Shown: positions 27,591 through 54,127 of the stretch, piece by piece
Layout: each line of letters opens with the position of its first letter
How positions within the stretch are numbered: position 1 is the first letter of the stretch
Notes under the pieces: generated by a model
The model's input: only the letters and a program-made list of their open reading frames with translations
What the model was told of the DNA's origin: nothing
Databases searched by the model: none
Translations under genes and position numbers: made by a program
IMG/VR virus record: IMGVR_UViG_3300034031_000046
Coordinates: 64,001-128,000 of that record
Length of the DNA: 64,000 bases
Source of the DNA: a virus
Strand: one strand, 5' to 3'

Positions 27591-27715
27591 GATACAATAA
27601 AAATACAGTCGTTTCCTCTCACACCCTTTTCGTCCGGCCTTTCCTCCCGCACCTCCGACTTTTAACCGCATAAATTCAGGCACAGCCGCCCCGATGGGGC
27701 GGCTGTGTGTTTTTC
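27591..27715 (+). promoter_or_regulatory. Lysis leader: extended -10, C-rich tract, terminator
   Basis: TGATACAATAA (27590-27600) is followed by a C/T-rich tract and a 12-bp perfect hairpin, CACAGCCGCCCC (27681-27692)/GGGGCGGCTGTG (27696-27707), then TGTTTTT. The putative holin starts 12 bases later. It is the third promoter-leader-terminator unit and would hold back lysis gene expression until readthrough is allowed. Confidence 0.65.
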
Positions 27716-27726
27716 GAGGTGTTGTG

Positions 27727-28170
27727 ATGCTGCAATTCGTAGTGCAACTGTGGGTGAGTTTTGGAACGTGGTGGAGCGAGGCGTCCACCGAAGTCCGCGT
27801 TCTGGTGATCGGGCTCGTGCTGAAACTTCTGGTCGATCTAATTCGCGTATTTGCCACGCGCATTGATGGACGCTGGGTTCATCTACTCGCTGCGTTTCTC
27901 GGGTTCGGAGCGTATGTCTTCGATCAGATGGCAAGTCTGGGGATCTCAACCGGTCCTTACGGCGCCGTGTTCGACCAATTTTTTCTTTCATCGCTGGTTG
28001 CACTGGGGGTGAACGAGGTCACACGCGGACGTGGCAAGCTCGGTCCCGGCAACACTCGTCTGGCTCCCAAGCGGACCAAGGCGAAAAAGACGAGTGGCAA
28101 AAAGCCCGCGAGTTCGACTGATTCCAACGAACCCAGCCTCCCGTCGTCCCCTCCCTCGCCTCCACAGTAA
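27727..28170 (+). CDS. Putative holin
   Basis: 147 aa with two to three hydrophobic segments (about residues 18-36, 46-65 and 78-98) and a basic Lys/Ser/Pro-rich cytoplasmic-type tail. ATG 27727 is chosen because GAGGTG lies 7 bases upstream. It is the first gene of a cassette ending in a cell-wall hydrolase. The family is not recognised, so the holin call is by position and topology. Confidence 0.55.
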   Translation: MLQFVVQLWVSFGTWWSEASTEVRVLVIGLVLKLLVDLIRVFATRIDGRWVHLLAAFLGFGAYVFDQMASLGISTGPYGAVFDQFFLSSLVALGVNEVTRGRGKLGPGNTRLAPKRTKAKKTSGKKPASSTDSNEPSLPSSPPSPPQ

Positions 28171-28210: not shown

Positions 28211-28753
28211 GTGGCCCAGAAGTTAATTGAACCGACCATCGCCGAAATCCTATTTGCTCTCGGCGACTTGCGCGAACGCATCGCCAAGATCGAAGGGCGA
28301 TTCGAGCTCTACGCACCCTTCGAGTGGGTGCACGAAAAGCTCACACCCGTGCGCGACTCTGTCGCAAATCTCCGCGAGTCGCTCGCTCGCATTACGACGG
28401 AGGACGAGGAGCAGGCGCGGGATATGGAAGAGTTGCGCACACGAATCGATGATGTTTTTGATTCGGTCAACAGCATCATCGAGGGACGTAGCGCAGACCG
28501 GAGCGATAGCAAAGAAATCATCGCCGCGCTGGAGAACAAGATCACCGCAGTGAACGACGAAGTCAGACGCCTGCAATCGCGCCAGTTCTGGAAACGGGTT
28601 CGTACGAAGCTGCGGCACCTGCCCGGCTTCAGCGAGCAGGGCAGCAAGGTCGTGGGCTTTGTCGCCCTGCTCATTGGTTTCTGGGCCACGGTTGGACCAT
28701 GGCTCAAACCTTTGCTGACTCAGATCATGGAGGCATTCTCTCATGCTCAATAA
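28211..28753 (+). CDS. Coiled-coil protein with C-terminal membrane helix
   Basis: 180 aa from GTG 28211 (TGAGGTAG upstream). Residues about 10-135 are helical with heptads; one membrane helix lies near residues 150-168 (VVGFVALLIGFWATVGPW). It could be a spanin-like or holin-accessory protein with its coil in the cytoplasm or periplasm. It overlaps the receiver gene by 11 bp. Confidence 0.55.
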   Translation: MAQKLIEPTIAEILFALGDLRERIAKIEGRFELYAPFEWVHEKLTPVRDSVANLRESLARITTEDEEQARDMEELRTRIDDVFDSVNSIIEGRSADRSDSKEIIAALENKITAVNDEVRRLQSRQFWKRVRTKLRHLPGFSEQGSKVVGFVALLIGFWATVGPWLKPLLTQIMEAFSHAQ

Positions 28754-29246
28754 TCCTTCATCCCCTAAGTCGTTTCGGGGTGAGGGTTTACCCCGAGTTT
28801 TGATTGCGGAAGACAACAGCGATCTGCGCGATATGATCGCGGCGAGCATCCTTCGGGACTGCCCGTTCGCCTTCGACTTTGCGGTCGATGGCGCGGATGC
28901 GCTGGCACGATATCAAGCGGCCCGCACGGAACAGTGGGCCTACGACCTGTTGGTGCTCGATAACCAGATGCCCGAGCACACCGGCATCGAAATCCTCGAA
29001 ACGGTGCGGGCGGGTGGGGACGAGAAGACGCCGGTCGCGCTTTTCACCTGCTATCTGGAGAATGCCGATCAGGAGCGTGCGCGGCGCGCGGGAATCCTCG
29101 GTGTGTGGCAGAAGCCCGACGGCATCATCGACCTGAAACAACGCATTATGCGCGCGCTGCGATTAAGCGAGCAGAGCGCAGTTTTTAATTTATCGGACTG
29201 CGTCCGCCCCTCGGTGGCCGGACGCATGGAGGGAACACTCGCATGA
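28743..29246 (+). CDS. Stand-alone response-regulator receiver domain protein
   Basis: 167 aa with all CheY-type landmarks: acidic pair E23/D24 (IAEDN), phospho-acceptor D73 (LLVLDNQMP), T102 (LFTCY) and K124 (VWQKP). A DNA-binding output domain is absent; about 30 residues follow the receiver. It overlaps both neighbours, so it is made together with the membrane coil protein and the endolysin. A phosphorylatable switch inside a lysis cassette is unusual; a timing or host-sensing role is inference. Confidence 0.8.
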   Translation: MLNNPSSPKSFRGEGLPRVLIAEDNSDLRDMIAASILRDCPFAFDFAVDGADALARYQAARTEQWAYDLLVLDNQMPEHTGIEILETVRAGGDEKTPVALFTCYLENADQERARRAGILGVWQKPDGIIDLKQRIMRALRLSEQSAVFNLSDCVRPSVAGRMEGTLA

Positions 29247-30112
29247 GAACAGAAGTTAAAACATTTTTAAAAATTCTGGGCAGCCAGGTCGGCGTTCAGG
29301 AAGAGAAGGGCAATCACGGTCCCAAGGTGGACATGTATCATCGCGCCGCGCATTTGAAGAATCCCCAGCCGCCTCGCGTCGGCGAGCCGTGGTGCATGAG
29401 CCTGATGGCGTATGGTGCACAGGAAACGGCGAAGGAGCTTGGCGTCGATGTTCCGATTATCCGCACCGCCGGCTGCGACGTGATGCTGATATGGGCGCGG
29501 CGCAACGGCATTCTCTTCGCCTCGAACTCCGAGCGCGCCGACCAATACGACGCGCAGATCTCGCTGCCCGAGCCGGGCGATATCATGCTCGTGATGGCTC
29601 ACAAATACGACGCGACGCACACGGGTGGCGTGGAAAGCGTGGTGCGCGCGGGTGTCGGCACCATTGAGGGCAACACCAACAACGATGGCGGACGAGAGGG
29701 AACTCACGTTCTGCGTAACCCACTCGGCAAGCCCCGTCCTGTTGATGGCCGCTATACGTGGGTGCGCTGGGCGAATTTACTTCCGGCAGAAAAGGAGGTG
29801 GCAGTCGTTGAATACGGGCTTCTGGTCAATGGCCGCCCGGTCATTGCGCACGGCAAGCCGGTGCTGATGCCGATGCAGGGCAACGTCCGGCTGGCACCGG
29901 CGCGGGCGCTGGGCGAAGCGCTGGGAGTCAAGGTCGGGTGGGACAAAGAGATTCACAGCGTGATTTATAACGGTCAGCCTGTGGGCGGTCAGGCCACGTC
30001 CATCAATGGTGAAAGCTGGCTGCCGGTTCGTGTTCTCGCAGCAGCGGCTGGAGTCAAACCTCGTGGCGTCCAGAACAGCGATGCACACCGCGAGGTTTCG
30101 ATCTGGCTGTAG
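29243..30112 (+). CDS. Endolysin: NlpC/P60 or CHAP-like peptidase plus copper-amine-oxidase-N domain
   Basis: 289 aa. The N-terminal domain has the Cys/His features of amidase-peptidases: GEPWC (Cys 51), ATHTGGVE (His 126) and IEGNTN. Residues about 190-289 form a copper amine oxidase N-terminal-like domain (LLVNGRPV, LAPARALGEALGVKVGWD, WLPVRVLAAAAG), typically an envelope-binding module. No signal peptide is seen, so release needs a holin. It is the last gene before a bidirectional terminator. Confidence 0.75.
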   Translation: MRTEVKTFLKILGSQVGVQEEKGNHGPKVDMYHRAAHLKNPQPPRVGEPWCMSLMAYGAQETAKELGVDVPIIRTAGCDVMLIWARRNGILFASNSERADQYDAQISLPEPGDIMLVMAHKYDATHTGGVESVVRAGVGTIEGNTNNDGGREGTHVLRNPLGKPRPVDGRYTWVRWANLLPAEKEVAVVEYGLLVNGRPVIAHGKPVLMPMQGNVRLAPARALGEALGVKVGWDKEIHSVIYNGQPVGGQATSINGESWLPVRVLAAAAGVKPRGVQNSDAHREVSIWL

Positions 30113-30153
30113 AATCGACGGGGCGATAAAAAACTGCGGGAGTTATGCAAAAA

Positions 30154-30187
30154 GGCCGCGCCATTTCTGGCGCGGCCTCGTTGTTTT
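30154..30187. terminator. Bidirectional terminator between late (+) and early (-) genes
   Basis: A 10-bp perfect stem GGCCGCGCCA/TGGCGCGGCC with a TTTC loop is followed by TCGTTGTTTT on + and by TTTTT on -. It separates the converging operons. Confidence 0.85.
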
Positions 30188-37602: not shown

Positions 37603-38727
37603 TTAGACCTGCATCGGCATCACGACATACAGAAAATCGCGATTGTCATCACCGGCGATGGTGATCACGCCGGGGTTGAGCGCGCCGTTGAGATTAAGTG
37701 TGATTTCCTTGCAGTCGAGCATGGTCAGGACATGAAGAAAGTAGGTTGTGTTGAAAGCGATATCGAGCGGCTCGCCGTCGATGTTCGCCCGCACTTCCTC
37801 GTAGGCTTTGCCCACGTCCTGGCTTTCGGCACGCAGGGTGACGAGATCGTCCTTGAAACCGAAAATCGTCTTCTGGGAGTTCGCTCGCGCGACGATATCC
37901 ACGCGGCTGAGCGAGTGAAGCAATGCTTCGCGCTCCATCGTGATTTTTCGCTCCGCGTTTTTGGGAATGACCTTTTCGTAATTCGGGAACTGCCCATCGA
38001 GCAGTCGCGACACGAAGGTTACATCACCGAAGTCGCACCGCACTTGCGAACTGCCGACACGGAAGCGTACATCGACTTCGTCGTCGTCTCTGAGTGTGCG
38101 CTCGATTTCAATGAGCGTTCGCGCCGGGATAATGGCCGATACCGGCGGCATCTTGACCGGCGGTGTCTTAGAGTCGAACTTGCGCCGCGACAACGCCAGC
38201 CGGTGCGTGTCGGTTGCAACGACGGTGAGACAGCCATCGCGAAAATCGAACAATGCGCCCATCAGAATGCTGCGGCTTTCCTCCTTGCTCGCGGCAAAGG
38301 CCGTCTGGCGCAGCATCGTCTTGAGCTGTCCCTGCGGCACCACGATATCCGTGCCCTCGATGTCGAAGGGTGTGACCGGAAAGTCGATTGCCTGAAGCGC
38401 GAGGATCGAATAGTCGCTTTTGCCCGAACGCAGCGTGACTCTGCCGTCGGTATCGGTAATCGTCACCGGGGCGTCGGGCAGCTTCGAAATCACGTCGTTA
38501 AGCGTCTTGGCAGGAATCGCAATCGCGCCGTTTTTATGGACCGTGACGGGAACAACCGCGCGAATCGAGGCGTCGAGGTCGGTGGCCGTCATGGTCAGCC
38601 GGTCGTCGCTGGTTTCCAGCAGCACATTGGACAGAATCGGCAGGGTGTTGCGGCTCGATATGCCGCGCGAGGTGATGCCGATGCAGGAAGCGAGGTAGCC
38701 GCGCTCGCAGGTGATTTTGAGGCCCAT
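37603..38727 (-). CDS. dnaN: DNA polymerase III beta subunit (sliding clamp)
   Basis: 374 aa, the usual length for bacterial DnaN with three clamp domains. Recognisable motifs: RNTLPILSNVLLE near the start, ATDTHRLAL in the middle, LLDGQFPNYEKVIP in domain 3 and the terminal YVVMPMQV matching the family's YLIMPMR end. It forms a dimeric ring tethering DNA polymerase and partner proteins. A phage-encoded clamp suggests redirection of host replication; a protein at 51938 ends in a clamp-binding motif. A 335-residue antisense frame is a shadow. Confidence 0.92.
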   Translation of the reverse strand: MGLKITCERGYLASCIGITSRGISSRNTLPILSNVLLETSDDRLTMTATDLDASIRAVVPVTVHKNGAIAIPAKTLNDVISKLPDAPVTITDTDGRVTLRSGKSDYSILALQAIDFPVTPFDIEGTDIVVPQGQLKTMLRQTAFAASKEESRSILMGALFDFRDGCLTVVATDTHRLALSRRKFDSKTPPVKMPPVSAIIPARTLIEIERTLRDDDEVDVRFRVGSSQVRCDFGDVTFVSRLLDGQFPNYEKVIPKNAERKITMEREALLHSLSRVDIVARANSQKTIFGFKDDLVTLRAESQDVGKAYEEVRANIDGEPLDIAFNTTYFLHVLTMLDCKEITLNLNGALNPGVITIAGDDNRDFLYVVMPMQV

Positions 38728-45685: not shown

Positions 45686-46342
45686 ATGGCAAACTTCAAA
45701 GGTGATGACGAACGGAAAACACATCCTATCCCAATACGGGTTTCTAAAACCACCTTGGGCAATTACCAAGAGCGGGTAAAAGCTCTCGCCAGTCAAACGG
45801 GGCGCAATGTCACTCTTTCGGAACCGGCGCGCCGCGGATTAGAATACTGGTATGAAACCGGTGGTCTGATGCCCGCGACCGGAGGAGTCCCGATTCTTGG
45901 CTACATACCCGCAGGGGGTGCCCAGCGTATCCAACCTTTGAACGGCGTCTTTGCCTATCCGCCCGATAGTTTCAAGCGCGGCGCCAATGACTACTTTCTT
46001 ATCGTTTCCGGGCACAGTATGCTGGCCGAAATGGTGCCCGGCAAGAAAACGCACAACATTGAAGACGGAGATCTCGCCTTGTTCTCGCGGGACATGGAGC
46101 TTTATAACGGGAACATCGTTCATATCGAATGGCCCGACGAGACTGACGGCGAGCAAATGTGCACGCTGAAAAAGTTCTACCTGGACGAAGAAAAGGGAAA
46201 GATCGTTTTGAAACCATCGAATCCCAAGTACGAAACTCTCACCTTTGATTTATCGCAGTGGAGTGAAGACCGAATCGACGGAATGCGCGTCAAGGGCGTG
46301 TACCGCAAGGTCTGGAAGCCCAACGACGAGGATGCTGAATGA
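45686..46342 (+). CDS. LexA-like (S24) repressor with ribbon-helix-helix N-terminus
   Basis: 218 aa from ATG 45686. Residues about 14-58 (PIRVSKTTLGNYQERVKALA, GRNVTLSEPARRGLEYW) fit a ribbon-helix-helix domain rather than the usual helix-turn-helix. Residues 68-218 are a LexA/S24 peptidase: cleavage pair A76-G77 in GYIPAGGA, Ser111 in VSGHSM and Lys162 in TLKKF. Self-cleavage after RecA activation should induce the prophage. It overlaps parA by 4 bp, so repressor and partition genes form one operon. Confidence 0.8.
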   Translation: MANFKGDDERKTHPIPIRVSKTTLGNYQERVKALASQTGRNVTLSEPARRGLEYWYETGGLMPATGGVPILGYIPAGGAQRIQPLNGVFAYPPDSFKRGANDYFLIVSGHSMLAEMVPGKKTHNIEDGDLALFSRDMELYNGNIVHIEWPDETDGEQMCTLKKFYLDEEKGKIVLKPSNPKYETLTFDLSQWSEDRIDGMRVKGVYRKVWKPNDEDAE

Positions 46343-47118
46343 CCGTACTTTCTCTGTGGCAAATCAAAGGTGGCGCCGGTAAATCGACACTGACCGCGCA
46401 ACTGGGAGCCACCATTTCCGCTGCGGGATACCGCACTCTACTTGTCGATTCCGACGGGCAGGCCACGCTCACTGAAAGTTTGCAAACTTCACTCAGCCGC
46501 CGCCCGACGCTGCGCGATGTCTTCGACGGGCAGGCTCCCAGTGAAGACGCTCTGGTCCCGGTGCGCGATAACCTTCACTGCATCTTCGCCGATGAACGCT
46601 TGTTCAATCTGGAGGAGGAACTTTCTTTTCGCCAGCGCGAGTACACGCTCTTCGCCGATGTGCTCGACCCGATCAGCAACCAGTTCGATATTTGCCTGAT
46701 TGACCTTCCCGCAGGACCGGCGCTGATTTCACGGTGTGGACTGCGCCGCAGCGACTGCTATATCATGCCGATTCTATGCGGAATGCCGTCCTTTCAAAGT
46801 GCCCGCAAAAGCGGGGTTCAACTCGCTCGTCATGCCGTAAAGTGTCCGCTGGGAGGTGTTGTCCTTAATATGTGGAAAGAAAGCGAGTCCGCGCATGCGG
46901 TGGCTCGCTTAGCAGAGCGTGAGTGGGCTGGCAAGGTATTTGCTCAACGAATCGCCGCCCGCGAATCCCTCCAAAAAATGGCGTTTAGGGGACGCACCGT
47001 CATTGACGGTGGCGTCCCCTCGTTACGCCAAGACTTCGCCAATCTGTCACAAGAGGTACTCCAACATGTCCAAACACTCCAACGGTGCAACGCTGCACCG
47101 CCGCCCCGCGTCACGTAG
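46339..47118 (+). CDS. parA: ParA-type partition ATPase
   Basis: 259 aa, the short (type Ib-like) ParA size without an N-terminal DNA-binding domain. Deviant Walker A KGGAGKST (K10 and K15), Walker A' DSDGQAT and Walker B-like ICLIDLPAG are clear. ParA binds nucleoid DNA and moves ParB-parS complexes to give plasmid inheritance. ATG 46339 overlaps the repressor stop, and the parB start lies inside its end. Confidence 0.88.
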   Translation: MTVLSLWQIKGGAGKSTLTAQLGATISAAGYRTLLVDSDGQATLTESLQTSLSRRPTLRDVFDGQAPSEDALVPVRDNLHCIFADERLFNLEEELSFRQREYTLFADVLDPISNQFDICLIDLPAGPALISRCGLRRSDCYIMPILCGMPSFQSARKSGVQLARHAVKCPLGGVVLNMWKESESAHAVARLAEREWAGKVFAQRIAARESLQKMAFRGRTVIDGGVPSLRQDFANLSQEVLQHVQTLQRCNAAPPPRVT

Positions 47119-48463
47119 CCTAGAGCAAGCGCTCGAAGCACGCCTGCAACAGGAAGCCGCTGAAACCGGTGCGCAGAACCCGCTTTTCCCTTCCCCTGTT
47201 CCCAACAACCAGACCGAAACATCCCATGAGGTCACCAGTGAGCCGGTTCAGTCGATAACGGCCACGGTCACTGTCGCCTCACGCGCGACCGGTGATGAGT
47301 CGGGCACAACCGCATCCGGCACTACCGAGCTCGTGCGCGTGCCTTACCGGGGACCGGAGCAGCCTGCGGATATGGAACAGCCGGTTGCGATGGGACCGGT
47401 CGTCGAAGAGGTTCGCTACGTCAACCCGTGGAAAGTTCGTCTGAGTACGGTCGGATTCCGGCAAACCTTCGACGATGAAACATGGGAAGCAATTCGAGAT
47501 CTGGCAGCAACGATGAAAATGCACGGCCCTGTCACGCCCTCGATTGTGCGTCCCATCAAATGGCAGCGCGAGAATGACGAAGAGTGGGAAGTTGTCACCG
47601 ACGACATTCCGGTTTTGGCCGCGCGCGAGGCCAATGTCCTGCTGCCCGTGATCGAGCGCAAGATGGACGACCTGCAATCGGCGTTCGCCAACCTCATCAC
47701 CACGTTCCACAATCCCGAAGTGTCGGCGATGGACAAGGGGGTCGGGCTGGACAAGCTGCAAAAGATGATGCAGGAGCAGCTTGACAAATGGCTCAAGATT
47801 GCCGAACAGCAGCAGCGTCAACTGGGCGGCGGACCAAAAAACAAAATCGTTTCTTCTGCCGCATGGGCGCAGGTCCAGCGCGAGTTCGTTAACGTCCCAA
47901 CGTGGATGGTCGATATCATTGAACGGTCCGGCCAGACGCGCAAGCCGCCCAAAGTTACCATCGACGACATGGTCGTACTCAGTGGTTTGCAGCGTCGGCA
48001 GATTTACTATTTGATGAGCATTGCCAACCTCACGGAAGACATCGACCCTGAGATTGTCAATGCCCTGTCCGGCCAGCAAACCCGACTGCTCTCCAAGATC
48101 GACGATCCCATCAAGCGCCGCAAGCTCGCCAAGGAAATGGTCAACAAGGGCCTCAAGGGCAAAAGTGCGGCTGATCGGTTCCGCCAGCTTACCGGAAAAA
48201 TTCTGGGCAACGGCGCGGCGAATGAGAGTGGGGGAGGGAAGACCACCGAGACTCCACGCGATGATGTGCAGGCCACGCAAACTGCACTCTCGACACTTGC
48301 TCTCACCGTCAACAATCTGCGCGAGGACAACAGCAAGGGCTGGGCAATGGGTGAGAGCACACGTGAAGCGCTTCTTGCCAACGCTGCGAATCTGCGCGCT
48401 CAAGCTGCTGCTCTCGAAGAAGTCGTCAACGCCGCACCGCGTGCACTCTCAGAGGAGGAGTAG
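47066..48463 (+). CDS. ParB-like partition protein
   Basis: 465 aa from ATG 47066 (AAGAGG upstream), overlapping parA. The N-terminal about 130 residues are disordered. A central part has a two-helix DNA-binding look (TIDDMVVLSGLQRRQIYYLMSIANL), then DPIKRRKLAKEMVNKGLKGKSA as in plasmid ParB C-terminal regions, and a helical end. Position after parA supports a centromere-binding role; similarity to classical ParB boxes is weak. Confidence 0.65.
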   Translation: MSKHSNGATLHRRPASRSLEQALEARLQQEAAETGAQNPLFPSPVPNNQTETSHEVTSEPVQSITATVTVASRATGDESGTTASGTTELVRVPYRGPEQPADMEQPVAMGPVVEEVRYVNPWKVRLSTVGFRQTFDDETWEAIRDLAATMKMHGPVTPSIVRPIKWQRENDEEWEVVTDDIPVLAAREANVLLPVIERKMDDLQSAFANLITTFHNPEVSAMDKGVGLDKLQKMMQEQLDKWLKIAEQQQRQLGGGPKNKIVSSAAWAQVQREFVNVPTWMVDIIERSGQTRKPPKVTIDDMVVLSGLQRRQIYYLMSIANLTEDIDPEIVNALSGQQTRLLSKIDDPIKRRKLAKEMVNKGLKGKSAADRFRQLTGKILGNGAANESGGGKTTETPRDDVQATQTALSTLALTVNNLREDNSKGWAMGESTREALLANAANLRAQAAALEEVVNAAPRALSEEE

Positions 48464-49845: not shown

Positions 49846-50967
49846 ATGCGCCCCACAAATCCCCACACTTCTGTATCCCGCTCCCAGAGAATCGACGCCG
49901 CAAGCCTCGCCTCGAATCCCGCGTTGCCCGTGGTTCCCGATGTGCCACTTCCGGTTCAAGGTCTTCCGGCGCATGACAGCGACGCCGATATCGCGCTCCG
50001 CGAGGCTTTCGCCGAGTTCATGCAATTGGATGTGGCCGAGGGAGACGCGACACAGGACACCATCAATTCCTACTATCAAGCCGTTGGACAGTGGGTGTAT
50101 TGGTGCCGCCAGCGTGGGCTGGAACCATCCGACGCCCGCCGTCAGGATGTCGAGTTGTATCGTTTTGAAATGCGATCGCGTGGGCTTACTGTGGCGACTC
50201 GCAAGCAAAAGTTGTCGATCATCCGGCGCTTTTATGATGCGGCGGTCAAATACAACATTCTCGCGGTGAATCCAGCAGCAGGGGTGAAGGGCGGCAAGGA
50301 TTTGACGCCGCCCGAGGAAAAGATCAAGACGCTGACCGAAGGCTCCCTCGGGCGCGTGCTCGACAGCATACCGCGCGACACGCTCGCTGGCAAACGCGAC
50401 CGCGCGATCATCGGACTGATGGCAATTCATGGACTGCGCCGCGTCGAAATTCATCGCATGGAGCATGAGCACCTGCGGCTGGACGACGAACATCCCACGG
50501 TCGTTCTCATGGGTAAGGGACACAAGCGCCGCACTATTCATCTACGGGCGGACACCGTTCGGGCACTGCAGGAATATATTGACGCCAAGCTCCAGACTGG
50601 ATACGTGCACCACGGTGCACTCTTTGTAGCCCACGGCAACAACGCGCGAGGACAAGGTTTAAGCCGTCAGGCCATGAATGAGATCTCGGACAAGTATTTG
50701 CGTCTCACCGGCCTCAAGCGCGAGGGAGCATCCTGCCATGTGTTTCGCCACACCCACGCGACCGAAGCCATCCGCAACGGCGCCAAGCTCGAACTGGTGC
50801 AGCGCAGTCTGGGCCACGAGCAAATCAGCATGACAATGCGCTACGTGCACCTGATCGAGGATTACAAGAACAATCCGGCCAACTTCATCGGTGTCGGACT
50901 TCAGTTTGAAGAGCCAGAATCGACGATGGCTGAAACCGCTGAGAATGATGATGTTTTCGGCGATTAG
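49846..50967 (+). CDS. Tyrosine recombinase (XerC/D-like)
   Basis: 373 aa. N-terminal SAM-like core-binding domain (about 45-150), then the catalytic domain with Arg in GLRRVEI, Lys in MGKGHKRR, HVFRH (His-x2-Arg), LGH and the nucleophile Tyr in MRYVHL. All five active-site positions are present. In a phage-plasmid it most likely resolves dimers; integration into the chromosome is the alternative. The gene contains a copy of the 16-bp palindrome (50605). Confidence 0.9.
   Translation: MRPTNPHTSVSRSQRIDAASLASNPALPVVPDVPLPVQGLPAHDSDADIALREAFAEFMQLDVAEGDATQDTINSYYQAVGQWVYWCRQRGLEPSDARRQDVELYRFEMRSRGLTVATRKQKLSIIRRFYDAAVKYNILAVNPAAGVKGGKDLTPPEEKIKTLTEGSLGRVLDSIPRDTLAGKRDRAIIGLMAIHGLRRVEIHRMEHEHLRLDDEHPTVVLMGKGHKRRTIHLRADTVRALQEYIDAKLQTGYVHHGALFVAHGNNARGQGLSRQAMNEISDKYLRLTGLKREGASCHVFRHTHATEAIRNGAKLELVQRSLGHEQISMTMRYVHLIEDYKNNPANFIGVGLQFEEPESTMAETAENDDVFGD
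50605..50620. repeat. 16-bp dispersed palindrome
   Basis: GTGCACCACGGTGCAC in the recombinase gene: both GTGCAC arms and a different 4-base centre. Confidence 0.5.
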
Positions 50968-53746: not shown

Positions 53747-54004
53747 ATGGCTGTTGCAGACAAGGTCAAGGAAATCTTGGCAGAAGAACTGAGAGTCGAT
53801 AGCGGTGCTGTTGTGCCCGCCGCGCGTCTGGTGGAAGACCTTGGCGCCGACTCGCTGGATGTCGTGGAACTGGTGATGCGCGCCGAGGAGGAATTCGAAA
53901 TCGAAATTCCCGACGAAGACGCGGAAAGCATTTCGACCGTTGGTGAATTGGTCTGTTACATCGCCAATAAAACGGGACAGCCTGCGGGCTCGCTTAGCGA
54001 GTGA
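53747..54004 (+). CDS. acpP: Acyl carrier protein
   Basis: 85 aa, four-helix ACP with the GADSLD motif; Ser36 is the 4'-phosphopantetheine site. Acidic throughout, ending in a short flexible tail. ACP carries acyl groups in fatty-acid synthesis. AAGGAG lies 6 bases upstream. A phage ACP could redirect acyl supply or regulate host lipid enzymes; no other lipid gene is in the window. Followed by a terminator built from the dispersed repeat. Confidence 0.92.
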
Positions 54005-54015
54005 TGACCGTTCGT

Positions 54016-54045
54016 AAAGTACGGTCGAAATGACCGTACTTTTTT
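54016..54045 (+). terminator. Terminator formed by two facing copies of the 13-mer
   Basis: AAAGTACGGTC-GAAAT-GACCGTACTTT is an 11-bp perfect stem followed by TTT. The left arm with the loop gives an exact reverse copy of the dispersed word (54017-54029); the right arm is a partial copy. It separates acpP from the tRNA. Confidence 0.85.
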
Positions 54046-54115
54046 GGTGGGTAGCTTAGTGGTAAAGCACCGGACTCCAAACCCGAGCACGCAGGTTCGA
54101 TTCCTGCCTCACCAG
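54045..54115 (+). tRNA. tRNA-Trp (CCA)
   Basis: Acceptor TGGTGGG/CTCACCA (one G-T pair), D-arm GCTT-AGTGGTA-AAGC, anticodon loop CTCCAAA, variable loop GCAC and T-arm GCAGG-TTCGATT-CCTGC. The anticodon CCA reads UGG (Trp). The anticodon stem keeps only three central pairs (CGG/CCG), with A-C and C-A mismatches at its ends. The 5' end abuts the T-run of the preceding terminator. Encoded CCA is not present after the discriminator G. Confidence 0.8.
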
Positions 54116-54127
54116 TGGAGAAGACAA

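Follow-up and report, generated by a model that had tools for sequence, protein, structure and literature searches.

The locus examined here raises the question of why a phage should carry, among its genes for lysis, a receiver domain that looks capable of being phosphorylated. The DNA analysed (the window) comprises 64,000 nt, positions 64001-128000 of the 139,387-base IMG/VR record IMGVR_UViG_3300034031_000046. The record represents a real tailed phage, as it encodes TerL (PHROG 38, 5.8e-81), a major head protein (PHROG 752, 5.5e-34) and a portal protein. When the endolysin, terminase and capsid proteins were used as queries, no related phage was found among viral contigs. Genes for ParA, a ParB-like protein and an XerC/D-like tyrosine recombinase are present at window positions 46339-48463 and 49930-50967; on this basis, a plasmid lifestyle of the phage is possible. 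We also noted a gene for an acyl carrier protein (53747-54004) adjoining a tRNA-Trp gene (54044-54116), and, on the minus strand, one for a DNA polymerase III beta clamp (DnaN, 37603-38727; an equivalog-level match of 316 bits).

The receiver and the lysis unit that contains it

The open reading frame at 28743-29246 on the plus strand encodes a protein of 167 aa. Residues 19-135 matched PF00072 (Response_reg) in Pfam with an E value of 3e-14 and a score of 53.6 bits (cut-off 30.2), and the profile searches found no other family above its own cut-off in this protein. In phmmer searches, it matched solved CheY/receiver chains with E values of about 1e-9. The AlphaFold2 model displayed a (βα)5 fold, with five strands in alternation with helices, a mean pLDDT of 85 and values above 90 over most of the core, and a Foldseek comparison of the model with receivers in the PDB gave target TM-scores mostly between 0.8 and 0.9. 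Alignment showed that the five CheY-type residues are all kept (E23, D24, D73, T102 and K124). Neither the profile searches nor the AlphaFold2 model revealed an output domain, the chain beyond residue 148 being just a low-confidence tail. The codon score of the gene resembles those of its neighbours. The original prediction had described a protein with all CheY-type active residues and no output domain, and these results confirm that the frame encodes a genuine stand-alone receiver (single-domain response regulator) that looks phosphorylatable.

The protein shares its fold, its active site and the lack of an output domain with CheY and other single-domain response regulators. It differs from them in being phage-encoded, in lying in a lysis unit and in having no cognate kinase in the record, where profile searches of all 139 kb found neither a second receiver nor a histidine-kinase ATPase domain (HATPase). 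Identity to CheY-type regulators is about 28% or less over the domain, and there is a 5-residue insertion ahead of the strand that bears D73. Two other identities were considered and rejected. A PhoB/OmpR-type transcription factor would carry a C-terminal DNA-binding domain, which is missing here as well as from the stand-alone relatives of the receiver (114-161 aa). The cREC domains of jumbo phages are defined by a cyclic-phosphate Rec profile together with NAD/ADP-ribose neighbours (PMC7824862), whereas our protein matches PF00072 and no cREC model, and its neighbours are lysis genes.

Concerning these neighbours, four genes lie in one direction on the plus strand, in the order holin-like membrane protein, coil protein with a transmembrane (TM) segment, receiver and endolysin. 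The first gene (27727-28170, 147 aa) is preceded by a Shine-Dalgarno sequence, GAGG, at 27716-27719. Its product has a strong TM segment at residues 25-43, more hydrophobic stretches and a basic C-terminal tail; although its size, membrane segment and position would suit a holin, it matched no family in Pfam, PHROG or other profile searches. The second gene (28211-28753) encodes an XhlA-like protein of 180 aa with a long helical coil, a basic stretch and then a single C-terminal TM segment (147-165). Its AlphaFold2 model is all-helical, and its match to PHROG 937, 'hemolysin', is weak (E 0.088). As the basic stretch precedes the TM segment, the positive-inside rule predicts a cytoplasmic coil, on the side of the membrane at which the receiver would be located. 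The fourth gene (29243-30112) encodes a CHAP-type endolysin of 289 aa that also contains Cu_amine_oxidN1. Its match to the endolysin family PHROG 9589 (4.5e-8) identifies it as the endolysin of a lysis cassette; the Pfam CHAP match, at 20.3 bits, is below the cut-off of 26, and that to PF07833 is above cut-off.

The receiver gene shares 11 nt with the coil gene (28743-28753) and 4 nt with the endolysin gene (ATGA, 29243-29246). Each of the two overlapping starts has its own Shine-Dalgarno sequence 9 nt ahead of the ATG, GGAGG (28729-28733) for the receiver and GGAGGG (29228-29233) for the endolysin. The four genes are bracketed by two strong hairpins resembling intrinsic terminators. The upstream one (27680-27708, plus strand) consists of 13 pairs followed by GTTTTT (z -2.4), and the other closes the unit at 30153-30178 on the same strand. 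The first gene most likely starts at 27727 and not at 27694, since the latter falls inside the upstream hairpin. About 18 nt separate the end of this hairpin from the first start codon. Transcripts must therefore read through it to reach the lysis genes, and it may act as a brake on their expression, in the manner of an attenuator or Q-type leader. A search of this leader against Rfam gave no match. The position within a lysis cassette and the overlaps on both sides, as originally proposed, were thus borne out.

Receivers in the lysis regions of other phages

We searched for relatives with the same gene order. With the window receiver as query, we obtained no close relative in viral contigs, nothing below an E value of 0.01 in phage records and no plasmid match at useful identity. 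A scan of 85,000 genomes returned generic receivers only, with 25-37% identity over the best segment. A further search used receiver alignments and other phage receivers; it was blind to genomic place, and surroundings were inspected afterwards. As a result, the gene order was found in several unrelated phages.

The closest parallels are the Alteromonas phages PB15 (KX982260) and XX1924 (MN592896), in which a 3-TM protein, a coil protein with a C-terminal TM segment, the receiver, a cell-wall enzyme and a GTA_holin_3TM protein are encoded in this order. The GTA_holin match was computed on the XX1924 protein, to which the PB15 counterpart is 94% identical. The XX1924 coil protein matches PHROG 937, 'hemolysin', at 1.2e-12. 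Order and topology up to the cell-wall enzyme are those of the window, and the receiver likewise lacks an output domain; in contrast, there is no detectable protein homology past the receiver fold and the coil, a GTA_holin_3TM gene follows the enzyme, and the enzyme is Peptidase_M15_3 (PB15) or DUF5675 (XX1924) instead of CHAP.

DUF5675 (PF18925) is a family of unknown function. The XX1924 gene (L036:2438-2836) occupies exactly the place of the Peptidase_M15_3 endolysin gene of PB15 (L037:4384-4740), a related phage, flanked by the receiver and the GTA_holin_3TM-type protein, and a DUF5675 gene is also found near the lysis genes of phage V22. This shared position and the V22 location suggest that DUF5675 is a cell-wall lysis enzyme.

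Other arrangements vary the same theme. Alteromonas phage R9Y2 encodes a protein with an N-terminal TM segment and a coil, the receiver and a GH108 lysozyme, with a 4-nt overlap at each junction; the arrangement is kept in four metagenomic relatives, and homologous receivers are present in R9Y1 and R9Y3. In the autographiviruses H4/4 and R8W, the order is class II holin, TM-coil protein, receiver and 2-TM protein. The schitovirus A5 carries a coil protein, the receiver, an Rz-like spanin (PHROG 4297, 2.9e-8), a 2-TM holin-like protein and an annotated endolysin, and the myovirus V22 a parallel series of coil, receiver, spanin-like and 2-TM proteins. Among metagenomic phages, L030 displays the order tail fibre, receiver, coil-TM protein, Hydrolase_2 and Phage_holin_10. 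In L029, a TM-coil gene is followed by the gene for a fusion, TM region first and receiver second; a GH108 endolysin and a TM protein come about 1.1 kb further on.

There were also receivers in other settings. L019 carries a TM-coil/receiver pair with a 4-nt overlap and no lysis gene recognised nearby. In L017 just a 2-TM gene adjoins the receiver, and near the stand-alone receiver of L028 no lysis gene was seen. In Alteromonas phage V19, a TM-coil gene precedes a pseudo-receiver (L038:3998-4450) in which the phospho-Asp is replaced by Pro and the conserved Lys by Ile, on the strand opposite to that of the neighbours. The PB15 and XX1924 receivers have lost the proline after the lysine.

Several matches were put aside. 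Full-length regulators occur in the phage records Komp_PAO1_1 (NarL-like) and OQ658365 (RssB-like), and the match in jumbo phage LR756501 is a PAS/receiver protein, hence no lone receiver. Receiver-bearing 'phage' records that resemble bacterial DNA (Listeria LM, Acinetobacter MD-2021a, Salmonella, faecal contigs and Pseudomonas Y11) were left uncounted. In the course of the search we also encountered, in large phages, PAS-domain proteins that include a receiver and appear to be hybrid kinases (L024:2598-5753 and L047:2132-4345); the TM-coil/receiver pair on the 16-kb contig of L019 is separate from these. Sequence L003 encodes a phage protein with BCS1_N, AAA and BCS1 lid domains (L003:18268-19659), arranged as in the mitochondrial chaperone BCS1, and a protein of 1055 aa (L003:8835-12002) with a domain of the inorganic-pyrophosphatase type (PF18823, 138 bits) and weak similarity to sigma-70 region 3.

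In a tree of 23 receivers, the Alteromonas-phage sequences cluster (80/87) across myo-, sipho-, podo- and schitoviruses, and the receivers of the window (on a long branch), L029 and L030 were placed without support. As the Alteromonas receivers form one clade, there are fewer independent cases than phages, and the clade is best counted as a single acquisition that would have spread across phage families while keeping its place next to lysis genes. On a strict count of groups found regardless of position, with the window as an extra, three of six (the Alteromonas clade, L029 and L030, against L017, L019 and L028) lie in lysis regions. The probability of at least three by chance is about 0.002-0.016, assuming that 5-10% of genes are in lysis regions. 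Counting ten phage lineages apart gives 6/10 and much smaller probabilities, yet these lineages are not independent of one another. The strict count leaves out a second common feature, the recurring TM-coil partner.

The acid pair, the phospho-Asp, the Ser/Thr and the Lys are kept in every receiver examined except that of V19, with identities often below 30%. Values of dN/dS were 0.08-0.13 among the R9Y-like receivers and 0.16 between H4/4 and R8W, and these receivers are therefore under purifying selection.

A proposed lysis-timing switch and competing explanations

Taking into account the arrangement described above, we consider it about an even chance (roughly 0.5) that the receiver and the membrane coil protein form a phosphorylation-responsive switch for lysis timing, set by a host kinase or a small phosphodonor. 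The receiver would dock on the membrane-anchored product of the gene directly ahead of its own, at the cytoplasmic coil. A host histidine kinase or small phosphodonor would determine the phosphorylation state of the receiver, which would alter how the coil protein restrains or aids the holin and endolysin, either direction of effect being conceivable, so that the time of lysis would be tuned to host signalling. The same gene order in several unrelated phages lifts this idea well beyond a single oddity, and the function of the receiver in the window phage itself would be read by analogy with these phages. That the coupled receiver and coil are a phosphorylation-gated lysis clock made repeatedly, through which the two-component signalling of the host would directly fix the moment of lysis, and a mobile module passed between myo-, sipho- and podoviruses, is a broader proposal that we put forward tentatively.

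Known lysis systems offer partial precedents. In the Bacillus prophage PBSX, XhlA is needed together with the holin XhlB and XlyA (PMC5589764); XhlA is a small protein made up of a coil and a C-terminal TM segment, partner to a holin and an endolysin, and the window coil shares this layout, but PBSX has no receiver and the window coil reaches only E 0.09 against the PHROG hemolysin family. The accessory proteins RI and RIII set the time of lysis in T4 lysis inhibition, with RIII working from the cytoplasm. Proteins beside the holin also set lysis time in N4 (gp62/gp63; PMC12642591), but none of the T4 and N4 proteins is a response-regulator receiver. What the authors of that study call the 'Receiver domain' of N4 is a conserved part of the pinholin (PMC12642591), a coincidence of naming.

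Insertion of cargo genes is frequent at the site between tail fibres and lysis genes. The main rival explanation takes the receiver for late-expressed host-signalling cargo. As a decoy or mimic, it would draw phosphate away from a host kinase or play a part in a CheY, PhoB or phosphorelay pathway, with the lysis operon being just a tolerated insertion site that provides late expression. This is how the Alteromonas copies have been published: that of R8W as a 'PhoB' auxiliary metabolic gene (PMC8228385), that of V22 as a CheY-like auxiliary metabolic gene (PMC7289586), and that of A5 likewise, within a 'host recognition module' (PMC10579305). The V19 pair, which resembles a separate island among genes of the other strand, and the L028 receiver, with no lysis neighbour seen, agree with cargo. 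On the other hand, this reading gives no reason to expect a recurrent TM-coil partner, close overlaps with coil and endolysin genes, the TM fusion of L029 or the placement of the A5 receiver between the coil and the spanin, holin and endolysin genes. As a PhoB, the protein lacks the DNA-binding domain, so that this label is wrong in kind. We regard cargo as rather unlikely.

The V19 protein retains its coil partner despite the loss of the phospho-Asp and Lys, and is the sole case that favours an adaptor independent of phosphorylation, in which the receiver fold would serve chiefly to bind the coil or holin, in the role of antiholin or chaperone, with only an incidental part for phosphorylation; the proline lost in PB15 and XX1924 points the same way. 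The active site kept intact at low identity in all the other receivers argues against such an adaptor, which we consider improbable. Least probable is a passenger gene, neutral or captured recently, that does nothing for the phage. One known phage of the lineage carries the receiver, and relatives were not found, as would be expected of a passenger; against this stand an active site intact at low identity to anything found, a good Shine-Dalgarno sequence, overlaps on both sides, and the recurrence of receivers elsewhere under purifying selection.

We found no literature link between receivers and lysis among open-licence papers, and response regulators go unmentioned in a 2025 survey of viral lytic proteins (PMC12596118). 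The original prediction, that no standard lysis cassette is known to have such a gene, thus holds for textbook and searchable papers but not for deposited genomes, where the genes stand labelled as 'PhoB' or 'CheY-like AMG'. Our results correct the annotation of such genes as metabolic genes for phosphate stress or chemotaxis.

The decision of when to lyse is understood in few models, namely the holin clock and the lysis inhibition of T4 and N4. To our knowledge, there is no example of a direct input from host signal transduction to lysis time. If the switch proposed here is real, the receiver within the lysis unit would feed host signalling straight into the timing of lysis, and the question can be tested at once, as the arrangement is shared by phages cultured on laboratory Alteromonas strains. 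The recurrence of this arrangement in unrelated phages, cultured marine ones included, suggests that phosphorylation signals of the host are used by some phages to adjust the time at which the cell bursts.
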